Below, one piece after another: positions 31,864-40,407 of a stretch of DNA of 64,000 nucleotides. The DNA comes from Fodinicurvata sediminis DSM 21159 (GTDB taxonomy: Bacteria; Pseudomonadota; Alphaproteobacteria; Kiloniellales; DSM-21159), in the NCBI RefSeq assembly GCF_000420625.1, contig NZ_ATVH01000011.1, positions 1 to 64,000 of the forward strand. The letters are read 5' to 3'. Every line of letters starts with the position of its first letter. The stretch's first letter is position 1. A model generated the notes under the pieces. The model was not told the DNA's origin. It did not search any database and worked only from the letters and a program-made list of their open reading frames with translations. The translations under genes were made by a program, and so were the position numbers.

Positions 31864-33246
31864 ATGACATATGAGGAAGACGACAAGTCTTTCGAGGACG
31901 AGGACCCTCGCTTTTCCCGGCGATGGCGGCGCTATGCCCAGGTCGGCGGGGAAGTGGGTATGCTGGCCGCCCAGTTGGCTGGTGCACGGGTCTTCAAGCG
32001 GCCGCTCGATCGCCAGCAGCATTCCGAAGGCCTCAAGACTGCGTTGGGCGGCCTGAAAGGTCCGCTCATGAAGGCAGCGCAGATCCTGGCGACCATACCT
32101 GAAGCGCTGCCACGCGAGTATGCCGAGGAACTGCGACAGCTGCAGTCCCATGCACCTCCCATGGGCTGGCCCTTCGTACGCCGGCGTATGCGCACAGAAC
32201 TGGGTGCTGACTGGCAGAAGCGCTTCGACAGTTTCGGGAAGGAAGCGGCGGCGGCCGCCTCGCTTGGACAGGTGCATCGCGCCGAGAAGGATGGGCGCCA
32301 GCTGGCCTGCAAGTTACAGTATCCGGACATGGCCTCGGCCGTGGAAGCGGATGTGGCCCAACTGAAATGGGCCTTTCGCGTCTATCGTCAGTATGACAAG
32401 GCCATTGATACCTCGGATATCTATCACGAACTGACGGCGCGCTTGCGCGAGGAATTGGATTACGAGCGCGAAGCCAAGCACATGGAACTCTATCGGCGCA
32501 TGCTGGCGGAAGAAAAGACCGTCCATGTGCCGGAGCCGCTGCTGGACCTGACAACCCGGCGCCTGCTGACCATGACCTGGCTCGAAGGGCAGTCCCTGAT
32601 GGATTTCATCGGGACACATCAAGACCAGGAACTGCGCAACAAGGTTGCCTACAACATGTTTCGCGCCTGGTACACGCCCTTCTATTACTATGGCGTAATC
32701 CATGGGGACCCGCACCTGGGCAACTACACGGTTCGCGAGGACGGCAGCATCAACCTGCTGGATTTCGGATGCATCCGTGTCTTCGATGCTTCCTTCGTGA
32801 AGGGGGTTATCGATCTCTATCATGCCCTGCATGACAACGACCGGGATCTGGCGATTTCTGCCTATCAGACCTGGGGTTTCCAGGACGTGGGGGATCGCCC
32901 CGATCTTCTGGAGGCGCTGAACATCTGGGCTAGATTCGTCTACAGACCGCTGTTGGAGGATAGAACCCAGACAATCCTGGATGATCCCGGTGGAGCCAAG
33001 GGTGCGGAAACAGTCGGACAGGTACACAAGGAATTGCGCCGGCTGGGTGGTGTGAAGCCACCACGGGAATTCGTCCTGATGGATCGTGCCGCCATTGGCT
33101 TGGGATCGGTTTTCATGCACTTGAATGCCGAGATCAACTGGTATCAGTTATTCCATGAAATCATTCAGGATTTTGATTCTTCAGCTCTGGATCGGCGCCA
33201 GAAAGGTCTGCTCCAGGCTGTCGGACTTCCCGAGGAGATTCCCTGA
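31864..33246 (+). CDS. ABC1/UbiB-family atypical kinase-like protein
   Basis: This 460-residue protein of the ABC1/AarF family is related to UbiB and COQ8, which support ubiquinone synthesis. It has the alanine-rich nucleotide loop AAAAASLGQVHRAE, the HGDPHLGNY catalytic loop and a LLDFGC metal-binding motif. The family's characteristic KxGQ motif reads K-A-A-Q (LMKAAQILATIPEALP), a variant I recall in an alphaproteobacterial subgroup. There is no C-terminal membrane helix of the UbiB type in the sequence. The last 86 bases overlap the 3' end of the convergent DUF4434 gene. Role in quinone or lipid metabolism is inference. Confidence 0.88.
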   Translation: MTYEEDDKSFEDEDPRFSRRWRRYAQVGGEVGMLAAQLAGARVFKRPLDRQQHSEGLKTALGGLKGPLMKAAQILATIPEALPREYAEELRQLQSHAPPMGWPFVRRRMRTELGADWQKRFDSFGKEAAAAASLGQVHRAEKDGRQLACKLQYPDMASAVEADVAQLKWAFRVYRQYDKAIDTSDIYHELTARLREELDYEREAKHMELYRRMLAEEKTVHVPEPLLDLTTRRLLTMTWLEGQSLMDFIGTHQDQELRNKVAYNMFRAWYTPFYYYGVIHGDPHLGNYTVREDGSINLLDFGCIRVFDASFVKGVIDLYHALHDNDRDLAISAYQTWGFQDVGDRPDLLEALNIWARFVYRPLLEDRTQTILDDPGGAKGAETVGQVHKELRRLGGVKPPREFVLMDRAAIGLGSVFMHLNAEINWYQLFHEIIQDFDSSALDRRQKGLLQAVGLPEEIP

Positions 33247-34255
33247 GATCAGCGGAATCCAGCTGCGGCCTGGCGTCAGTACAGAGCCATTGCGCTTTTC
33301 GGTATTGCTCATACAGCTGTTTTGCCGCGTCCCCTTCCTTGGGGTCGAGGTAGGGATGAAAGGCAAAGGCAGAGGCCTCAAGATCGTTTTCCCGAACCAG
33401 CGAGAGATTGTCTTTAATCCAACCCCACTCTGCTGATTGAAAGCCCGAGTCTCCCTTTGTTCGGAACAGTTCAGAGATGACTGCAAGCTTCTTTTGGCTT
33501 GCTGACAGCGTAGACTTGAGCGCCTCAAGGTAGAGGGTCAGTTCCTCGCGATTGAGTTTCTCTACACCCAGTCCATCTTGAAAGTAGAGTTTCTCGATAC
33601 CGCTGGTATCGAGAACTTTCTTCCAGAAGTGTCCCCACTGTCCACTTGGCATTTTGCCGTTGGAGAAAGCCGAGATGCTGATCGGTGCATCAGAATGCTG
33701 CCTGATCTGTCTGTAGGCACGAGAGAGGTATGCGATCAGTTGTTCCTGCCGCGCCTCTCCGCGCCAGTTCAGGTCGTCGATCTCGTCCGCTATGTACCAT
33801 CCCTCAAAGCTGTCCTGCTTTGACAGCTCGGAAAGTTCATCCAGCAGAAGGCGCCGCTCGACGTTGCGTTGCTCGAAGTAGACGGATCGATGATGCGGCC
33901 CACCTGAGATCCGTTCCCAGAAATTCGGATCATACTTCAACCCGAGGACAAGTTTGATGTCATTGTTTTCCGCAGCCTTGAAGAGTCTGCCAACCAGTGT
34001 TTCCGGCCCTTTTGGTACAGGGGCAGCGTGAAAACTGATATCTCCATAGCGCGACCACTGCAGGACGATGCGTTCAATGCCAAGGCGGCGCCAGTCATGG
34101 AAGAGCTTGTTCCAGCGTGTTTCATCCCACTCTGATTGGCTTGTGGTCGGTTGCAGGAAGGTTTCCCGAAAGAAGGGAGGGCAGTCATGGGCGTGGGCCA
34201 TGCATGCGTTGAAACCAACGATGCAGAGCAAGAGGAAACTGGATATGCCCTTCAT
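33161..34255 (-). CDS. Secreted DUF4434 (glycoside-hydrolase-like) protein of the Nfr-type locus
   Basis: This 364-residue protein has a signal peptide (FLLLCIVGFNACMAHA) and a DUF4434-type TIM-barrel pattern: ETFLQPTTSQSEWDETRWNK, LGIERIVLQWSRYGD, LVLGLKYDPNFWERI, GWYIADEIDDLNW and EKLYFQDGLGVEK. DUF4434 resembles glycoside hydrolases, and the acidic pair in ADEIDD is placed like catalytic residues. It is the last gene of the coupled glycosyltransferase, TPR-barrel, DUF4434 unit, starting one base inside the previous stop (TGATG). By analogy with exopolysaccharide systems such as Pga it could trim or modify the exported glycan in the periplasm. As I recall, E. coli has a similar protein, YbcH, beside nfrA. 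The last 35 residues are rich in Asp, Pro and Gln, and overlap the convergent ABC1 gene. Confidence 0.8.
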   Translation of the reverse strand: MKGISSFLLLCIVGFNACMAHAHDCPPFFRETFLQPTTSQSEWDETRWNKLFHDWRRLGIERIVLQWSRYGDISFHAAPVPKGPETLVGRLFKAAENNDIKLVLGLKYDPNFWERISGGPHHRSVYFEQRNVERRLLLDELSELSKQDSFEGWYIADEIDDLNWRGEARQEQLIAYLSRAYRQIRQHSDAPISISAFSNGKMPSGQWGHFWKKVLDTSGIEKLYFQDGLGVEKLNREELTLYLEALKSTLSASQKKLAVISELFRTKGDSGFQSAEWGWIKDNLSLVRENDLEASAFAFHPYLDPKEGDAAKQLYEQYRKAQWLCTDARPQLDSADLRESPREVRQPGADLSGADPELKNQNPE

Positions 34256-37200
34256 CAGAAGCTGACCTGGAAAAGCAGCGAGAATCGGGTTGCGGGATCA
34301 CTCCAGGTGGTGTGGAGGTCGCGGCCCAGGCGCAGAAGTGTTTTGCCCTGCGAAAGATAGCCATTGTAGCGGTCATGATTGAAACGCCAACGCGCAGACA
34401 GCCCCATACCGCCTTCGATCCAAACGTCGCCGGTCGTATCAGGGTAAAGGACAACAGTGCGTGTGTTATCCCGTTCATATTCCTCACGGCGCCGTTCAGA
34501 GGATTGCGTGATCTGTCCGCCGCCCCGGACATAACCGAAAGGGAGAAACATGAGTTTCCGGTTTGGCTGCCAGGCCAGGCCGGCCCGTCCCTCAGAAAAG
34601 GCTGATGTCTGATCGTCCTTGGAGAAAAGGCGTGAAGCTTCGCTATGCGTGTGCGCGTAGAATCGGAAAGGATGGTCCGGGCGCTTCCAGTTGTCACCCA
34701 AGCTTTCGGAGAAGCCGACCCGGAGCAGCCAACCGCTTATTGCGGAGTCACCGATTGGCAGTATCCGTTCTGCTCCCAGCCAATAATTCCTGCCCCGGAA
34801 AGGATAGGCCCGGAGGCCCAATGCCGCCTGGGCGGATTCCGAATTCATCATGTTGAAGCCCGGGGCGTTGCTCCAGAACAGGCGTGCCGTGAGTTCGACT
34901 AGATGAGACCAGCGATGCAGGGAGCCCCCGCCCATGGGACGCCAACTCATGGCTAGCTGTCCGTAGGAAAGATCGTGACTGTCGCCGAACGGATTGAGAA
35001 GCCGTTGGCAGGCCATACCTTTGGGAAAACAGAAACTGTTCGTAAGGCTTAGAGAGTAGGGGCGGTCCAATTCCCTGTGCTGGTTCTGCAGTACGTTTCG
35101 AGGCGAAGCCCCGTCAGCATCCTTCGTCGAAATGACGGCGTAGTTTCCTTCATCCATGGCGCGGCGGAAAGCTTTGCCTGCCTGCTCCGTGTGACCGAGG
35201 CGCAGATAGGTAAAGGCCAGGTTTGCTCTGGCACCGGGATAATCGGGGTCTTGTTCGAGGGCCTCGTAAAGGAGTTTGGCGGCCTCCTCATCGTTCTTCT
35301 GTTGGCTGTGCAAATAGGCCTGCTCAACCTTGAAGTCGGTTTTCTCCGGAAAAGCTTTTTCGGCCTTGCCGAGATAATGGAGAGCTTCATCGAGCTCTCC
35401 CGCCTGTTTCAGTGCTGTTACCAGTGAAAGATAGCGTGCTGCTGTGGGGTCAACGTCGAGGGCGTATTTGCGATGAATCAGCCCCAGCTTCTTATGGCCT
35501 CTGTGAAGCGCATGCTCGGCATGCAGGTCATGGTAAAGTCCACTGAACCGTCCAGTAATCTCGTTTGATGCAACAAGTTCCAGGTTCTTCCAGCTATCTT
35601 CGAATTCTCCAACTTGCAGAAGTGAGTTGGAAAGCTTGACCCTGAATTCTGGGCTGTCGCCATAAGCGAGCGCTTCTTGCCAGTATTGGGCGGCCTTGCG
35701 GTGGTTTTCGCTTTCGGCGTGGATATGCGCAAGACTGGCATTGACAAGCCTTTGGTCCGTTCGTGACAGAGAGCGCGCATCCTGGATTTCCTGCAGGTAG
35801 AAGTCCGCAAGGGCAATACGACCGCGTTTCAGTGCCGACAGGGCGAAAGCTAGGCCGGCTTCGGCAAGGTGACCTCTCTGATAGGACAGTTGAAAGTTGG
35901 TCTCGGCCTTCTCGGTGAACTTGATGGCGGCATACCTATAGCCAAGATCCAGCAGTTCCTCCGGACTCTTCCGTACCTTGATAAGCTCTAGCAGAGATAT
36001 TGCCGTTTCCGGACGCTCATGTCGGTCAGCAAGACTTACACCTTCGCGAATAAGGCGATCGGCGCGAGGGTTCTGTTTTGCAAAGCCGTGATAACAGGCA
36101 AAGGCAGAGTCGAGTTTTCCAAGTTCGGCCTGGGTTCTGCAGGCCAACGCCTGGATCTGTTGCGAAACTTTGTGTGGTTTTGATTCCTGCGCAAAGAGGT
36201 TTTCAAGTGCCTTCCAATCCCGAATACGGTGACTGGCCCGAAGGGCTTTCATCCAGCTTTGTTCATCGGGTGAAATCTGGTGCGCCTCAAGATAGGAACG
36301 TGCAGCACTGTCGTGTTGGCCAGCCTGCGCATGGGTTACAGCCTTATCCTGTAGATGGGCGCGGCGTTCTTCACGATTTGGAGCTGTGGTGGCCAGTTGA
36401 TCGTAAAGGGACAGGGCTGTCTGGAAATCATTGCTGCGTCGCAACCCATGGGCAATATCGAGGAGTTGCTTGCGTCCTTCAGGGGACAGCAGAAGCTGCT
36501 CGAAAGCCGGTTGAGCAGCCTCTGCTGCCGGGCTGGAGACAAGCTGCACCATGCAGTCTTGAATGTCAGAGGCTTGTTTCCAGCAGGTCTGGCGGCCAGT
36601 TCTCGAAAGCAGAATTTCCAATGCCCGGTTGGCTTCATTTCTTCTGGCAAGCGAAGTCACAAGTGTCCCTGAACTTGAAGGTCCGGGCAGAATCCCCATT
36701 GCCTTGGTGAAATAGGCTGGAGCAACATCCTTGGCATCCAGCTTGCCCGCAAGGTGGCCAACCATGCTGGCTTTCCGATGGAGCTCGTATGGCAAGGCTG
36801 AATGAAAACGTGCTTCCGCAGTGCTGCCGGTCAGGATCAGAAGTGCGTCTGTGAAGCGCTCTTGTTGTTCGCGGATGACGGCCTGCATGAAGAGGGCTTG
36901 TCTAGCCGTCTTGTCTGCCGTTCTCTCGGACTGTGCCACAGTCTTGAAGAGCTTAAGGGACTGTTCCCGCTGGCCGAGGGCCAGATGACTGTAGGCTACG
37001 ACCAGTTCATGTGCTGGAGACAGGAAAACTTCATCACGTACCTGAACATGGATTCTGACGACATCGCTCTCCCTCTGCTGTGAACGCAGGATGCGGAACA
37101 GTTCCAGTAGACTGTCGTTGAAGTCCTTGGAGCTTTGCCATGCTGAAAGAGATTGGTGGTAAAGATCGGTGACAACCTGATGATTCCTGTCGCCAGTCTC

Positions 37201-37704
37201 CAACAGCAGTCTTGCCGAAATCCGGGCTGCGGGACCGAATTGCGGCACCATCGCCAAAAGCTGCTGGCTTTGTTCTATAGCAGTCCTGTTTTCTTTATGG
37301 GCGATTGAACGCAGAAGGTTCCGGTAGAGCAGAAGAGGATTGGCTGGATTATGTTCATAGCTTGCTGCTATGAGCTGCGCCTGGTCTTGTTCCTGCAGTG
37401 TCTCTGCCAGGCCATCGGTACGTTTTGCCTGGTAAAGATAAAGCATCTCCTTCCATCGTGAAGAGGCTGGGCGGTGCCCGGAAAGGTGCCGTAGGAGACT
37501 ATCGTCACTATTGGCACCAGGGCGTGTCTCCAGCTCCATTTCCTGGACGTCCGCGCCATGCATGCGCAGGTAACGCTTGGTTTCCGTCTGGGATGACGCC
37601 TTGCTGAACTCCAATGTCAGCAGTCCATAGAAAACCAGCAGGATAAAGCCAAGTAACAGACTTCTGCCCACGGCAGACGCGAATGCCACAGTCATGGTTT
37701 TCAT
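34255..37704 (-). CDS. nfrA: NfrA-like TPR and outer-membrane-barrel protein
   Basis: This is an 1149-residue protein, longer than E. coli NfrA (about 990). After an N-terminal hydrophobic segment (SLLLGFILLVFYGLLTL) lie about 800 residues of TPR-like helical repeats, for example YLEAHQISPDEQSWMKALRAS and ALEQDPDYPGARANLAFTYLRLG. The final 300 residues, from about RPYSLSLTNSFCF on, have alternating aromatic and small residues of a beta-barrel and end in phenylalanine (RFSLLFQVSF), the outer-membrane-protein signature. Parts such as GLRAYPFRGRNYWLGAERILPIG resemble the NfrA C-terminal domain. It should export the glycan made by the upstream synthase. It overlaps that gene's stop by four bases (ATGA). 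Confidence 0.82.
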   Translation of the reverse strand: MKTMTVAFASAVGRSLLLGFILLVFYGLLTLEFSKASSQTETKRYLRMHGADVQEMELETRPGANSDDSLLRHLSGHRPASSRWKEMLYLYQAKRTDGLAETLQEQDQAQLIAASYEHNPANPLLLYRNLLRSIAHKENRTAIEQSQQLLAMVPQFGPAARISARLLLETGDRNHQVVTDLYHQSLSAWQSSKDFNDSLLELFRILRSQQRESDVVRIHVQVRDEVFLSPAHELVVAYSHLALGQREQSLKLFKTVAQSERTADKTARQALFMQAVIREQQERFTDALLILTGSTAEARFHSALPYELHRKASMVGHLAGKLDAKDVAPAYFTKAMGILPGPSSSGTLVTSLARRNEANRALEILLSRTGRQTCWKQASDIQDCMVQLVSSPAAEAAQPAFEQLLLSPEGRKQLLDIAHGLRRSNDFQTALSLYDQLATTAPNREERRAHLQDKAVTHAQAGQHDSAARSYLEAHQISPDEQSWMKALRASHRIRDWKALENLFAQESKPHKVSQQIQALACRTQAELGKLDSAFACYHGFAKQNPRADRLIREGVSLADRHERPETAISLLELIKVRKSPEELLDLGYRYAAIKFTEKAETNFQLSYQRGHLAEAGLAFALSALKRGRIALADFYLQEIQDARSLSRTDQRLVNASLAHIHAESENHRKAAQYWQEALAYGDSPEFRVKLSNSLLQVGEFEDSWKNLELVASNEITGRFSGLYHDLHAEHALHRGHKKLGLIHRKYALDVDPTAARYLSLVTALKQAGELDEALHYLGKAEKAFPEKTDFKVEQAYLHSQQKNDEEAAKLLYEALEQDPDYPGARANLAFTYLRLGHTEQAGKAFRRAMDEGNYAVISTKDADGASPRNVLQNQHRELDRPYSLSLTNSFCFPKGMACQRLLNPFGDSHDLSYGQLAMSWRPMGGGSLHRWSHLVELTARLFWSNAPGFNMMNSESAQAALGLRAYPFRGRNYWLGAERILPIGDSAISGWLLRVGFSESLGDNWKRPDHPFRFYAHTHSEASRLFSKDDQTSAFSEGRAGLAWQPNRKLMFLPFGYVRGGGQITQSSERRREEYERDNTRTVVLYPDTTGDVWIEGGMGLSARWRFNHDRYNGYLSQGKTLLRLGRDLHTTWSDPATRFSLLFQVSF

Positions 37705-39164
37705 GGCTGCTTCTTTCCAGGTCGGGGTGGTGGAGGCTTGTCTTTCAGGACCGATTCATCCGGAAAGTTGTGATCTGTCTTGACCCAGGTGAGGGGCTTG
37801 CCCCGAAGGCGAGACCACCAGTACTGCCCATTGGCCCAAAGCAGTGCGGAGTAGTTGATGGCTACACTCCAGCCATAGCGCAGGGGAAGTGTGACCAAGG
37901 CCCCCCAACCATAGAGGCTCCAGGTCCAATAGCCGCGCAACACAAGCCGATAGATCATCAGGCCCAGGTTGGAGAGGAGCAGTATCCAGATGAACTGACT
38001 GGAAGGGAGAAACGCATGCGGCGTATAGCCAAGTTGCGTTTCCATGTGCTTTTGCCATAGCAGGAGAAGCAGAGCGGCGTATGAGGCAGGTGCTGCATGA
38101 GCGCAGAGAAGTGCCTTGCGATCTCGCCAAAGCTGATGGCGAAGCCAGAAGGAACCTGTCCAACCAAGTTGTGACCAGCCCTGCAATCCTATGCCGATGG
38201 TCCATCGGGATTTCTGGCGTACCGCGCGGTAAAAACTGTCGGGGAAGTATTCTCGTGTGGCCACAAGGTCGTGACGTGTACCAATGCCTTTCCGTTGCCT
38301 GTCGTATACACGCGGGAAGCAAAAGCGGGCTCCGGCCTGGTGCAGCCTGAAAGAGAGGTCGTAGTCCTCTGTCAGAGCGCCATTGCGGAAAATGTCCACT
38401 TCGTCGCCAAGTCGAGACAAGGTGGCGGCCGCATAAGCCGTTCCCACTCCTGCACCTGGCACCAGCCCGCTGAACGCGGCGCGAGCAACCAGCTCCTTGG
38501 CGTGCATTTCAGCGAATTCATCCTGGTAGTGCCCGGTGGTCAGGTCGAACCAGCTGCGTGGCAAGGCAACGACTGGCAACTGCACAACGTCATACTGATC
38601 CAGAAAGTAATTGCAGACGCGAAATGCATAAGGGTGCACAACGTCTTCTGCATCCTGCAGGATGAAGGCCTCGAAAGGCTGCTCAACCACGGTGGCACGG
38701 GACTTTATGGCGCTGTAAATATGGTTCAGGCAGTCAGCCTTGTTCGTCCCCCCATCATGCGGGAGGAGAATCATCTCCACATTCGGATATGTCTCAGCCA
38801 GATCTATGGCTTCACTGACAGTATCGGAATCGTTGGGATAACAACCGATGAAGATCTTGTAGTTGCGATAGGAAACAACACTCAAGAGCCGGGTCACGGA
38901 CTTCCGGATAACCGGCGCTTCCTTCCAGGCCGGCATCATTATCGCCAGGGGTTTTTCAGAGGTGCTCTGGGAAAGAAGCTTGTGCAGGTTGTACCTGCGG
39001 CAATTCTCTGCAGGCTTCAAGCCTGCTTTGCAGGCCAGTGCCATCAGGTCCATCATGAGATCATCGATGGCTGAAATCAACTGGATCAGGGCGGCCAGCA
39101 CAAAGAGCGCGAGTATCCAGGCCTGCGCCGTGAAATAGAGATCATAGCTCAAGAAGGGGTCCAT
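37701..39164 (-). CDS. nfrB: NfrB-like family-2 glycosyltransferase (synthase) lacking MshEN domain
   Basis: This 487-residue inner-membrane processive glycosyltransferase has the GT2 signatures of NfrB: EKPLAIMMPAWKEAPVI, the catalytic DAED at 171-174, LTEDYDLSFRL at 264-274, and the QxxRW-type motif QKSRW at 317-321 in AVRQKSRWTIGIGLQG. One membrane segment lies near residues 12-34 and about three follow the catalytic domain, between roughly 355 and 435. It ends about 20 residues after the WVKTDHNFPDE motif, the point at which E. coli NfrB continues into its cyclic-di-GMP-binding MshEN region. The length is therefore about 260 residues shorter than NfrB. It polymerises an unknown sugar, in E. 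coli thought to be ManNAc-based. It is the first gene of the coupled cassette. Confidence 0.85.
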   Translation of the reverse strand: MDPFLSYDLYFTAQAWILALFVLAALIQLISAIDDLMMDLMALACKAGLKPAENCRRYNLHKLLSQSTSEKPLAIMMPAWKEAPVIRKSVTRLLSVVSYRNYKIFIGCYPNDSDTVSEAIDLAETYPNVEMILLPHDGGTNKADCLNHIYSAIKSRATVVEQPFEAFILQDAEDVVHPYAFRVCNYFLDQYDVVQLPVVALPRSWFDLTTGHYQDEFAEMHAKELVARAAFSGLVPGAGVGTAYAAATLSRLGDEVDIFRNGALTEDYDLSFRLHQAGARFCFPRVYDRQRKGIGTRHDLVATREYFPDSFYRAVRQKSRWTIGIGLQGWSQLGWTGSFWLRHQLWRDRKALLCAHAAPASYAALLLLLWQKHMETQLGYTPHAFLPSSQFIWILLLSNLGLMIYRLVLRGYWTWSLYGWGALVTLPLRYGWSVAINYSALLWANGQYWWSRLRGKPLTWVKTDHNFPDESVLKDKPPPPRPGKKQP

Positions 39165-39196: not shown

Positions 39197-39216
39197 TAAT
39201 AACTATACAGTTATTA
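39197..39216. promoter_or_regulatory. AT-rich perfect dyad upstream of the nfrB-like gene
   Basis: The arms TAATAACT and AGTTATTA are perfect complements around a 4-base spacer (ATAC), in the 99-base gap between the AraC-family gene and the synthase start. The dyad is 33 bases upstream of the synthase start, so it is well placed for an operator. It could also be a weak terminator of the araC-like gene. The gap is otherwise AT-rich, unlike neighbouring DNA. Confidence 0.5.
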
Positions 39217-39263: not shown

Positions 39264-40337
39264 TCAGGCAGAACCATTACCGCGTACAAGCCTTTGGAAT
39301 CGTTTCCGATATCTGGCCGGCGTTGTACAAGTTCGCCGCTTGAAGAGGCGGCGAAAATAGACGGGATCTTCATACCCAACAGCGTGTGCAACTTCCTCGG
39401 TTGAGAGGTTGCCGGTCTCCAGTAACTGCTTTGCCTCTTCGATCCGCAGGGCCTGAACGTAGTCTACCGGAGAATAGCCTGTGGCCGCCTGGAAGCGGCG
39501 CTTGAAGGTGCGCTGTGCCAAACCGGAACGTTCAATCATGCAGCTGACGGGATGTGATTCCGCATAGTTCTGCGCGATCCAGGATTGGCAGTGGGCAATC
39601 ACGGCATCCGAATGCTTGCGTGGCTGGGTCATTGCCGCATAGGAGAGTTGACCTTCGCTGCGGTCGCCAAAAAGGAAAATCTTGGCGATATGCAAGGCTT
39701 CTGCCTCACCGCAGAAGCGTGCGATCAGGTAGAGTGCCAGATCCTCCCAGGCAGCCGCCCCTCCACTGGTGACGAGGCGATGTTCCGTGCCAGCCGGGCA
39801 GAGAATGCGTTCGGCCGTCAGTCCTACGTCGGGATAGCACGCGCGAAATGTTTCCACGGCACTCCAGTGCGTGGTTGCCGGTTGCCCGTCCAGAAGGCCG
39901 CTCTCGGCTAGGAAGAGGGAACCAGTACATACGGAAGTCACCATGGCATCATTCCGGAACTGATCTCGGACCCACGCCGTTTCCAGCGGCCAGCGACCCA
40001 TGGGTGACTGTCCTGGCGGGATCACCAGATCTGTCACGACGACAAGGTCGCTCACGCCAATCTCGTCGAGCGTTGCCTGAGGAGTAACCGGTAGGCCAAT
40101 GGCAGAGGTGAAGGGTTCTTTCGTGGCGGCCACGATCCGGGGCGCCATGCGTCGCACGTCATTTCGCTCGCCTGTCAGTTCGCTCCAGGTGACACCCACC
40201 GATAGAAAGACCTCATAGAGGCTGTAGAGGACAGTTGGTGTCGTCTCCGGCAGAGCCAGAAGACTGACGCTCAGCGGTGGAAGAGTCTTGCGCGCATGCA
40301 TGGAAAATAGTGGCACAAAGGCCCTGTTCCTGTCCAT
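39264..40337 (-). CDS. GlxA-type AraC-family transcriptional regulator
   Basis: This regulator of about 357 residues has an N-terminal DJ-1/PfpI-like domain (SVCTGSLFLAESGLLDG, HWSAVETF) and a C-terminal AraC helix-turn-helix pair (MIERSGLAQRTFKRRFQAATGYSPVDYVQ and EEVAHAVGYEDPVYFRRLFKR). The GlxA-type layout is typical of regulators of small-molecule pathways such as amino-acid or betaine use. The start is the ATG at 40337, with a GAGGGG site; an earlier GTG at 40376 is less likely. It is divergent from the methyltransferase gene across 70 bases, which suggests it controls that gene. It lies upstream of the glycan cassette on the same strand, so it could also influence it. Confidence 0.9.
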   Translation of the reverse strand: MDRNRAFVPLFSMHARKTLPPLSVSLLALPETTPTVLYSLYEVFLSVGVTWSELTGERNDVRRMAPRIVAATKEPFTSAIGLPVTPQATLDEIGVSDLVVVTDLVIPPGQSPMGRWPLETAWVRDQFRNDAMVTSVCTGSLFLAESGLLDGQPATTHWSAVETFRACYPDVGLTAERILCPAGTEHRLVTSGGAAAWEDLALYLIARFCGEAEALHIAKIFLFGDRSEGQLSYAAMTQPRKHSDAVIAHCQSWIAQNYAESHPVSCMIERSGLAQRTFKRRFQAATGYSPVDYVQALRIEEAKQLLETGNLSTEEVAHAVGYEDPVYFRRLFKRRTCTTPARYRKRFQRLVRGNGSA

Positions 40338-40407
40338 TGAGCCCCTCGTGCATGGAGGACATCGGGCGTATGTCACGCGCTGTCTTCATGAAACGAAAGG
40401 AAAGAGA

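Follow-up and report, generated by a model that had tools for sequence, protein, structure and literature searches.

A three-gene operon homologous to nfrB, nfrA and ybcH in Fodinicurvata sediminis, with a synthase that lacks the MshEN domain

The operon and its three products

The window analysed here is a stretch of 64,000 nucleotides from the alphaproteobacterium Fodinicurvata sediminis DSM 21159 (contig NZ_ATVH01000011.1, positions 1 to 64,000), and our subject is an operon of three minus-strand genes within it that are predicted to encode a polysaccharide synthase, an exporter and a DUF4434 protein. The synthase and exporter genes overlap by 4 bases (37701-37704, ATGA) and the exporter and DUF4434 genes by a single base (34255). 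A preliminary description of the locus had given these overlaps, with coordinates that proved exact to the base, and had read the products as a glycosyltransferase family 2 (GT2) synthase, a tetratricopeptide repeat (TPR) and outer-membrane barrel exporter and a DUF4434 protein, in agreement with the Pfam matches found here (GT2, TPR/NfrA_C and DUF4434). The comparison with Escherichia coli NfrB, NfrA and YbcH that it proposed yielded sequence homology for all three genes. Their features are listed below; invariance was scored over 12 sequences.

37701..39164, minus strand: NfrB-like processive GT2 polysaccharide synthase, 487 amino acids (aa); stops shortly past the KTxHxFP segment, without an MshEN domain
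38643..38654, minus strand: catalytic DAED segment of the synthase, residues 171-174; D171, E173 and D174 invariant (12/12), D171 aligning with E. coli NfrB D169
38364..38372, minus strand: catalytic TED motif, residues 265-267, invariant (12/12)
38202..38216, minus strand: QxxRW motif (QKSRW, residues 317-321); Q317, R320 and W321 invariant (12/12)
34255..37704, minus strand: NfrA-like exporter, 1149 aa; N-terminal hydrophobic segment, TPR repeats and predicted C-terminal outer-membrane barrel domain
34348..34851, minus strand: NfrA_C domain (PF13283) of the exporter, from Pfam
33161..34255, minus strand: YbcH-like DUF4434 protein, 364 aa; N-terminal signal-like segment and a TIM-barrel glycosidase-like fold in a low-confidence model
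33782..33784, minus strand: E158 of the DUF4434 protein, invariant (12/12), just past strand 4 in the model; candidate acid/base
33575..33577, minus strand: D227, invariant (12/12), at the end of strand 6 in the model
33470..33472, minus strand: E262, invariant (12/12), near the end of strand 7 in the model (local confidence score below 50); candidate nucleophile

Fodinicurvata fenggangensis DSM 21160 (L003; Alphaproteobacteria, Rhodospirillales, Rhodovibrionaceae) carries the same three genes with identical lengths (487, 1149 and 364 aa), order and overlaps. All three frames are open there, with protein identities to the window of 90% (synthase), 83% (exporter) and 78% (DUF4434 protein) and nucleotide identities of 91, 84 and 81%. 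A synthase search of genome contigs found relatives only in F. fenggangensis and in an Aminicenantes metagenome-assembled genome.

The synthase shares 36% identity with E. coli NfrB over 476 aa (E 3e-85) and matches the Pfam GT2 model at 128 bits. An alignment of 12 synthases places all of the GT2 motifs, DxD, TED and QxxRW, in the window protein. Its matches to PgaC (E 0.001 over 43 residues) and BcsA (E 0.029) are far weaker, and in pairwise and model scores, used here in place of a tree including these proteins, it does not group with either; membership of the cellulose synthase clade, which the preliminary description had named as fatal to its assignment, is therefore not indicated. A PDB sequence search with the synthase returned a chance match only. 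A different polymer system, of the cellulose, poly-N-acetylglucosamine or hyaluronan type, that merely resembles Nfr would account for the weak PgaC match and for an overall layout shared with Pga and Bcs. We consider this very improbable in view of the E values above, which cover PgaC and BcsA, and of the NfrA_C and YbcH homologues that share the operon with the synthase. In addition, a scan of the 2 flanking proteins and of 8 more from the window turned up neither a deacetylase nor a BcsB-like domain.

The exporter is 23% identical to E. coli NfrA over 297 residues, and Pfam finds TPRs and an NfrA_C domain in it (46.4 bits, cut-off 25). It ends in ...LLFQVSF, and so bears the terminal phenylalanine of outer-membrane type that had been described previously. 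A profile of four exporters of the family, built from their last 290 residues, matched one built from the same part of five NfrA proteins (hhalign 96.2%, E 2.4e-9). An ad hoc count gave 11 amphipathic strands, against 5.8 +/- 2.0 in shuffled sequences (11 was reached in 3 of 300 shuffles). The same count gave 11 for both PgaA (5/300 shuffles) and BcsC (3/300), 5 for each of the negative controls (the TPR stretch and the DUF4434 protein), and only 10 for E. coli NfrA, where it is raised less clearly (19/300). A PDB sequence search with the exporter gave TPR- and pentatricopeptide repeat (PPR)-type matches only.

The DUF4434 protein shares 33% identity with E. coli YbcH over 235 aa and matches its Pfam family at 152 bits (cut-off 30). 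An AlphaFold model built from a two-sequence alignment (predicted local distance difference test score, pLDDT, 52.5; predicted template modelling score, pTM, 0.55) is an alternating strand/helix barrel. Foldseek ranks 4h41 first (E 1e-9), and this putative fucosidase is also the best PDB match by sequence profile (E 6.7e-5). VIA-align places it (Z 15.8) level with mannosidases and mannanases of glycoside hydrolase families GH164 and GH5. E158, D227 and E262 do not vary across the 12 sequences compared, which come from distant genomes and include E. coli YbcH. In the low-confidence model they stand just past strands 4 and 6 and near strand 7, an E/D/E arrangement typical of retaining clan-A glycosidases. 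Conservation and model together suggest that the DUF4434 protein is a glycosidase-like enzyme rather than a scaffold.

YbcH has been termed a putative scaffold, and the word 'hydrolase' is absent from the main text of that report (PMC8669469). A non-enzymatic periplasmic scaffold of this kind would fit the finding that the E. coli motility defect is fully suppressed by loss of nfrA or nfrB and only partly by loss of ybcH (PMC8669469). For the window protein we judge it somewhat unlikely, as the three acidic residues are conserved in all 12 proteins across distant genomes and the predicted model folds like glycoside hydrolases. The E/D/E residues and the glycosidase-like model make YbcH itself worth considering as a hydrolase. 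Our literature search found no paper mentioning DUF4434, and a profile scan of viral contigs for DUF4434 found no relative.

With regard to the sugar substrate, every nfrB-bearing species has been reported to carry wecB, either linked or elsewhere (PMC8669469). One WecB-like UDP-N-acetylglucosamine 2-epimerase (WecB/NfrC) is encoded in the genome, at 209223-210260 on the same contig and outside the window; it scores 441.5 bits against TIGR00236 (cut-off 210), so that the genomic epimerase expected of an Nfr system is present. Its neighbours are presumably AlkB-like and Elm1-like genes. The WecB-like gene permits, and does not prove, UDP-N-acetylmannosamine (UDP-ManNAc) as the substrate. Among the loci compared, the stretch fetched around the synthase includes a WecB gene in 15 of 20 cases where the synthase has a C-terminal extension and in 2 of 13 where it lacks MshEN (adjacent in L086, about 4 kb away in L079).

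The missing MshEN domain and control of the synthase

The Nfr polymer of E. coli was described in 2021 as driven by cyclic di-GMP (c-di-GMP), which activates NfrB through its C-terminal MshEN domain (PMC8669469, PMC8669472). In E. coli NfrB the G491L substitution abolished, and G519S partly abolished, killing by phage N4 (PMC8669472). The window synthase terminates in the alignment just past the KTxHxFP segment, at the point where the MshEN part would start, and gives no MshEN match, so that a domain used to define Nfr membership is missing. The preliminary description had overlooked this absence. In the whole genome we found no MshEN and no PilZ matches, with searches that were positive in 5 of 14 control genomes each.

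In a tree of 33 synthases a single branch parts 20 with a C-terminal extension from 13 without it, the window synthase being among the latter (support 96/90). Removal of the long-branched G632 left the same split, with support of 97/91 and one change of state. Pfam detects MshEN in 14 of the 20 extended synthases and in none of the 13; the residues aligned with E. coli NfrB G491 and G519 are glycine in all 20, including the six without a Pfam MshEN match. Given this single supported branch, the window synthase is not a recently truncated NfrB. The tree is unrooted, so one gain and one loss of MshEN fit it equally. It samples 21 of the 33 phylum genomes that match the NfrB profile, with 12 left out; L088 (from G390, a repeat of L003) and L035 and L036 (exporters with no synthase in the fetched stretch) were omitted, and six rows of the synthase trees have unusual amino-acid composition. 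A conserved MshEN domain has been reported in 1,705 of 1,841 NfrB homologues (PMC8669469), and an MshEN-free minority is thus already implicit in that figure.

Control by c-di-GMP might instead have moved to a separate, unrecognised receptor or to a partner diguanylate cyclase. The idea has some basis, as c-di-GMP drives the E. coli system (PMC8669469, PMC8669472) and GGDEF is matched 8 times in the F. sediminis genome, once weakly (8e-6). We regard it as unlikely, since the genome has no MshEN or PilZ match, none of the GGDEF matches lies on the contig that carries the operon, and the MshEN-free state is common to the 13 synthases examined on this branch and is not peculiar to the species. 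The output of a switch-free synthase would probably be governed by transcription, substrate or a partner protein.

The region upstream of the synthase contains one further feature:

39197..39216, no strand: near-palindrome TAATAACTGTATAGTTATTA, the sole one in the window, lying in the gap of 99 bases that precedes the synthase gene

This near-palindrome, a candidate operator only, sits within a 59-base run that is identical in F. fenggangensis. We do not count the conservation of this stretch in favour of an operator, since the synthase coding sequence itself contains an identical run that is longer (94 bases). A promoter scan gave a single weak site, inside a gene, and shuffled sequences gave more. 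Beyond the gap, 99 bases upstream of the synthase and in the same direction, lies a gene for a DJ-1/PfpI and AraC-type regulator (39264-40376; FtrA-like, below cut-off); a 370-aa ORF fills this position in F. fenggangensis, and a different ORF is found there in L037. At the other end of the operon, the DUF4434 gene shares its last 86 bases (33161-33246), tail to tail, with an ABC1-kinase gene that converges on it (31864-33246), and an 86-base overlap with a convergent ORF is likewise present in F. fenggangensis (L003 15919-16004).

Relatives of the synthase and their interruption by mobile elements

The occasional occurrence of such systems in alphaproteobacteria has been reported already (PMC8669469). 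NfrA_C was found in 13 of 385 alphaproteobacterial genomes, and in the fetched stretches a synthase lies beside it in 10 of the 12 outside the window's own genome. Among the 61 genomes searched in the window's order, an NfrB profile (E <= 1e-60) matched 4, which belong to two genera of the window's own family and have open frames of 494-499 aa. All four (G000, the window's genome; G390; G159; G389) carry the three genes together. Among the loci compared, homologues of YbcH occur in 8 of 20 with an extended synthase and 4 of 13 without MshEN, the window included.

Phylum-wide the same profile matched 33 of 398 genomes, 17 of them in one family, f14. A dedicated search (E <= 1e-15) detected an NfrB homologue in 272 of 298 f14 genomes. 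The best match of one f14 synthase is on a Sphingomonas parapaucimobilis plasmid (44% identity, versus at most 37% in nine others, among the matches listed, 18 in total), and from this match and the gene order we take f14 to be a sphingomonad-like family. In the 8 loci read, the f14 synthase ends after the GT domain, as in the window, and lies on the same side of the tree; elsewhere in f14 the absence of MshEN is only suggested by the listed open frames, mostly of 460-600 aa. By sequence comparison the window synthase is thus part of an MshEN-free branch that has a widespread member in the sphingomonad-like family. Unlike the window, these 8 loci contain no DUF4434 gene that we could find, and in 7 of them (L080-L085, L087) the downstream protein, of 327-556 aa as called, ends in phenylalanine and is possibly another type of exporter; the two scanned had no Pfam match. 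The exception is L079, where the synthase is followed by a 537-aa NfrA_C protein.

Eight distinct phage contigs from IMG/VR (among L039-L046 and L111-L118) carry an NfrB relative in parts, with a break near residues 210-222 in window numbering. The site corresponds to the codons of the conserved HYxDEFAExH segment, and the junction was read in 7 of the 8 (all except 2518645547_000007). Both gene parts with the element between them are present in 2597490171_000003 and 3300026487_000012. Tyrosine integrases (L039, L040, L045) or large serine recombinases (L041, L044) adjoin the break, and L039 and L043 carry capsid, portal and terminase genes. Our literature search found no report of prophages in nfrB.

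Within f14, 19 of the 272 genomes gave two partial synthase matches and a weak best score (counted by eye). These 19 and 3 more with a single partial match were searched again; the weak single matches of G862, G1030, G1039, G1046 and G1062 were left out. Five insertions were read (L149, L150, L152, L153, L154), each an element of 3.5-4.4 kb whose inverted ends are alike, with direct target repeats of 8-10 bases, placed at window residues 134 or 156-157; joining the flanks gives an open frame of 462-513 aa. The transposases of the three scanned (L150, L153, L154) are of the IS1595 type. Near the HYxDEFxE segment the synthase gene is interrupted in L156, with a serine recombinase, and in L157, with a tyrosine integrase; in G1076 (L158, read in part) the interruption lies further along the gene. 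L151 has an ambiguous 7-base repeat, and the scanned ORF of L155 (G1009) had no Pfam match. In five of the 22 re-searched genomes (G805, G999, G1037, G1058, G1059) the gene looks frame-broken and not split by an insertion; several more have the gene parts on separate contigs. Eight of 12 stretches were searched against Rfam without a match, and hence without a known intron; a search of plasmids with the region of one element also found none.

As a control we used NhaA, present in 254 of the 298 f14 genomes, with a best match weaker than 1e-100 in 3 (by eye). By that criterion the synthase is affected in 13 of 272 genomes (Fisher p 0.02), and its 19 of 272 by the criterion of two partial matches, set against the same 3 of 254 despite the unlike criteria, gives p 0.0008; in both comparisons NhaA paralogues may mask breaks, incomplete drafts enter both counts and the model lengths differ. 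The excess of split synthase genes over NhaA is only suggestive. As a side observation, these insertions tie the synthase family to recurrent prophage and insertion sequence (IS) insertion in the sphingomonad-like family.

One might go further and suppose that Nfr synthases split early into c-di-GMP-switched and switch-free kinds, the window holding a full switch-free cassette with an active hydrolase and the f14 gene being cut repeatedly; we consider this scenario rather unlikely. If it were true, the repeated cutting of the f14 gene by prophages and IS1595-type elements would fit a polymer that serves widely as a phage receptor and whose loss pays.

Proposed function and comparison with known systems

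The operon probably encodes an Nfr-type system of exopolysaccharide synthesis and export without a c-di-GMP switch. Its product would be a surface sugar chain akin to that exploited by phage N4 for infection of E. coli, and may serve, as the preliminary description proposed, in a holdfast, in adhesion or as a phage receptor. We favour this because the three overlapping genes are homologues of NfrB, NfrA and YbcH and the catalytic residues of the synthase are intact. The synthase would build a polymer from a nucleotide sugar, for which an N-acetylhexosamine such as UDP-ManNAc is the likeliest candidate, and thread the growing chain across the inner membrane. The exporter's TPR part would then carry the chain across the periplasm to the protein's own barrel, and the DUF4434 protein, acting as a periplasmic glycosidase, may trim or clear it.

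Several observations weigh against this reading. None of the three proteins reaches its curated NCBIfam equivalog cut-off (NfrB 362.6 of 1170 bits, NfrA 42.1 of 1223, YbcH 144.2 of 344), and for the synthase two 'glycosyl transferase family' models (388.6 and 363.6 bits) rank ahead of NfrB, all three below cut-off. AlphaFold gave no usable barrel for the last 290 residues of the exporter (mean pLDDT 28) and its model was discarded. The DUF4434 model is poor by its pLDDT and two-sequence alignment and was read only together with sequence conservation; against it, a large number of glycosidase families score alike, at Z 13-16. The WecB-like gene is unlinked to the operon; in the order, 3 of the 4 genomes with Nfr genes and 20 of the 55 without have WecB, a difference that is not significant (Fisher p 0.29), and none was found in G389, whose draft assembly places the operon on a contig of 7.7 kb. 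Lastly, c-di-GMP could still act via a receptor of another type.

The exporter is nevertheless assigned a barrel because of its NfrA_C match, the profile-profile match and the ad hoc strand count; the preliminary description had held that an exporter without a predicted barrel would undo its assignment, and the NfrA_C domain speaks for one. Its call of an Nfr-type cassette holds as far as homology to nfrB, nfrA and ybcH is concerned and does not extend to the equivalog cut-offs. The Nfr-type interpretation is accordingly supported at the level of sequence, for an operon that is homologous to Nfr and arranged alike and is not a strict equivalog.

The layout of an inner-membrane synthase, a TPR/barrel exporter and a periplasmic hydrolase is also that of pgaABCD and bcsABZC. 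Their synthases are only distantly related to that of the window, and the likeness is one of layout, not of membership. E. coli K-12 nfrBA-ybcH, which makes the glycan receptor of phage N4, is much closer: it has the three homologous genes in the same order, the same active-site motifs in the synthase, a TPR/barrel exporter with NfrA_C and a DUF4434 protein. It differs in the length of NfrA (990 aa, versus 1149 aa for the window exporter), in an NfrB of 745 aa with MshEN, where the window synthase has 487 aa without it, and in being c-di-GMP driven, whereas no c-di-GMP link was found at the window operon. The system is of a known kind, found here in one more host, and its real difference is a synthase that has no c-di-GMP domain and stands on a separate side of the tree. 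As a complete switch-free operon, it offers a natural comparison for the contribution of MshEN and for the activity of a stand-alone GT domain.

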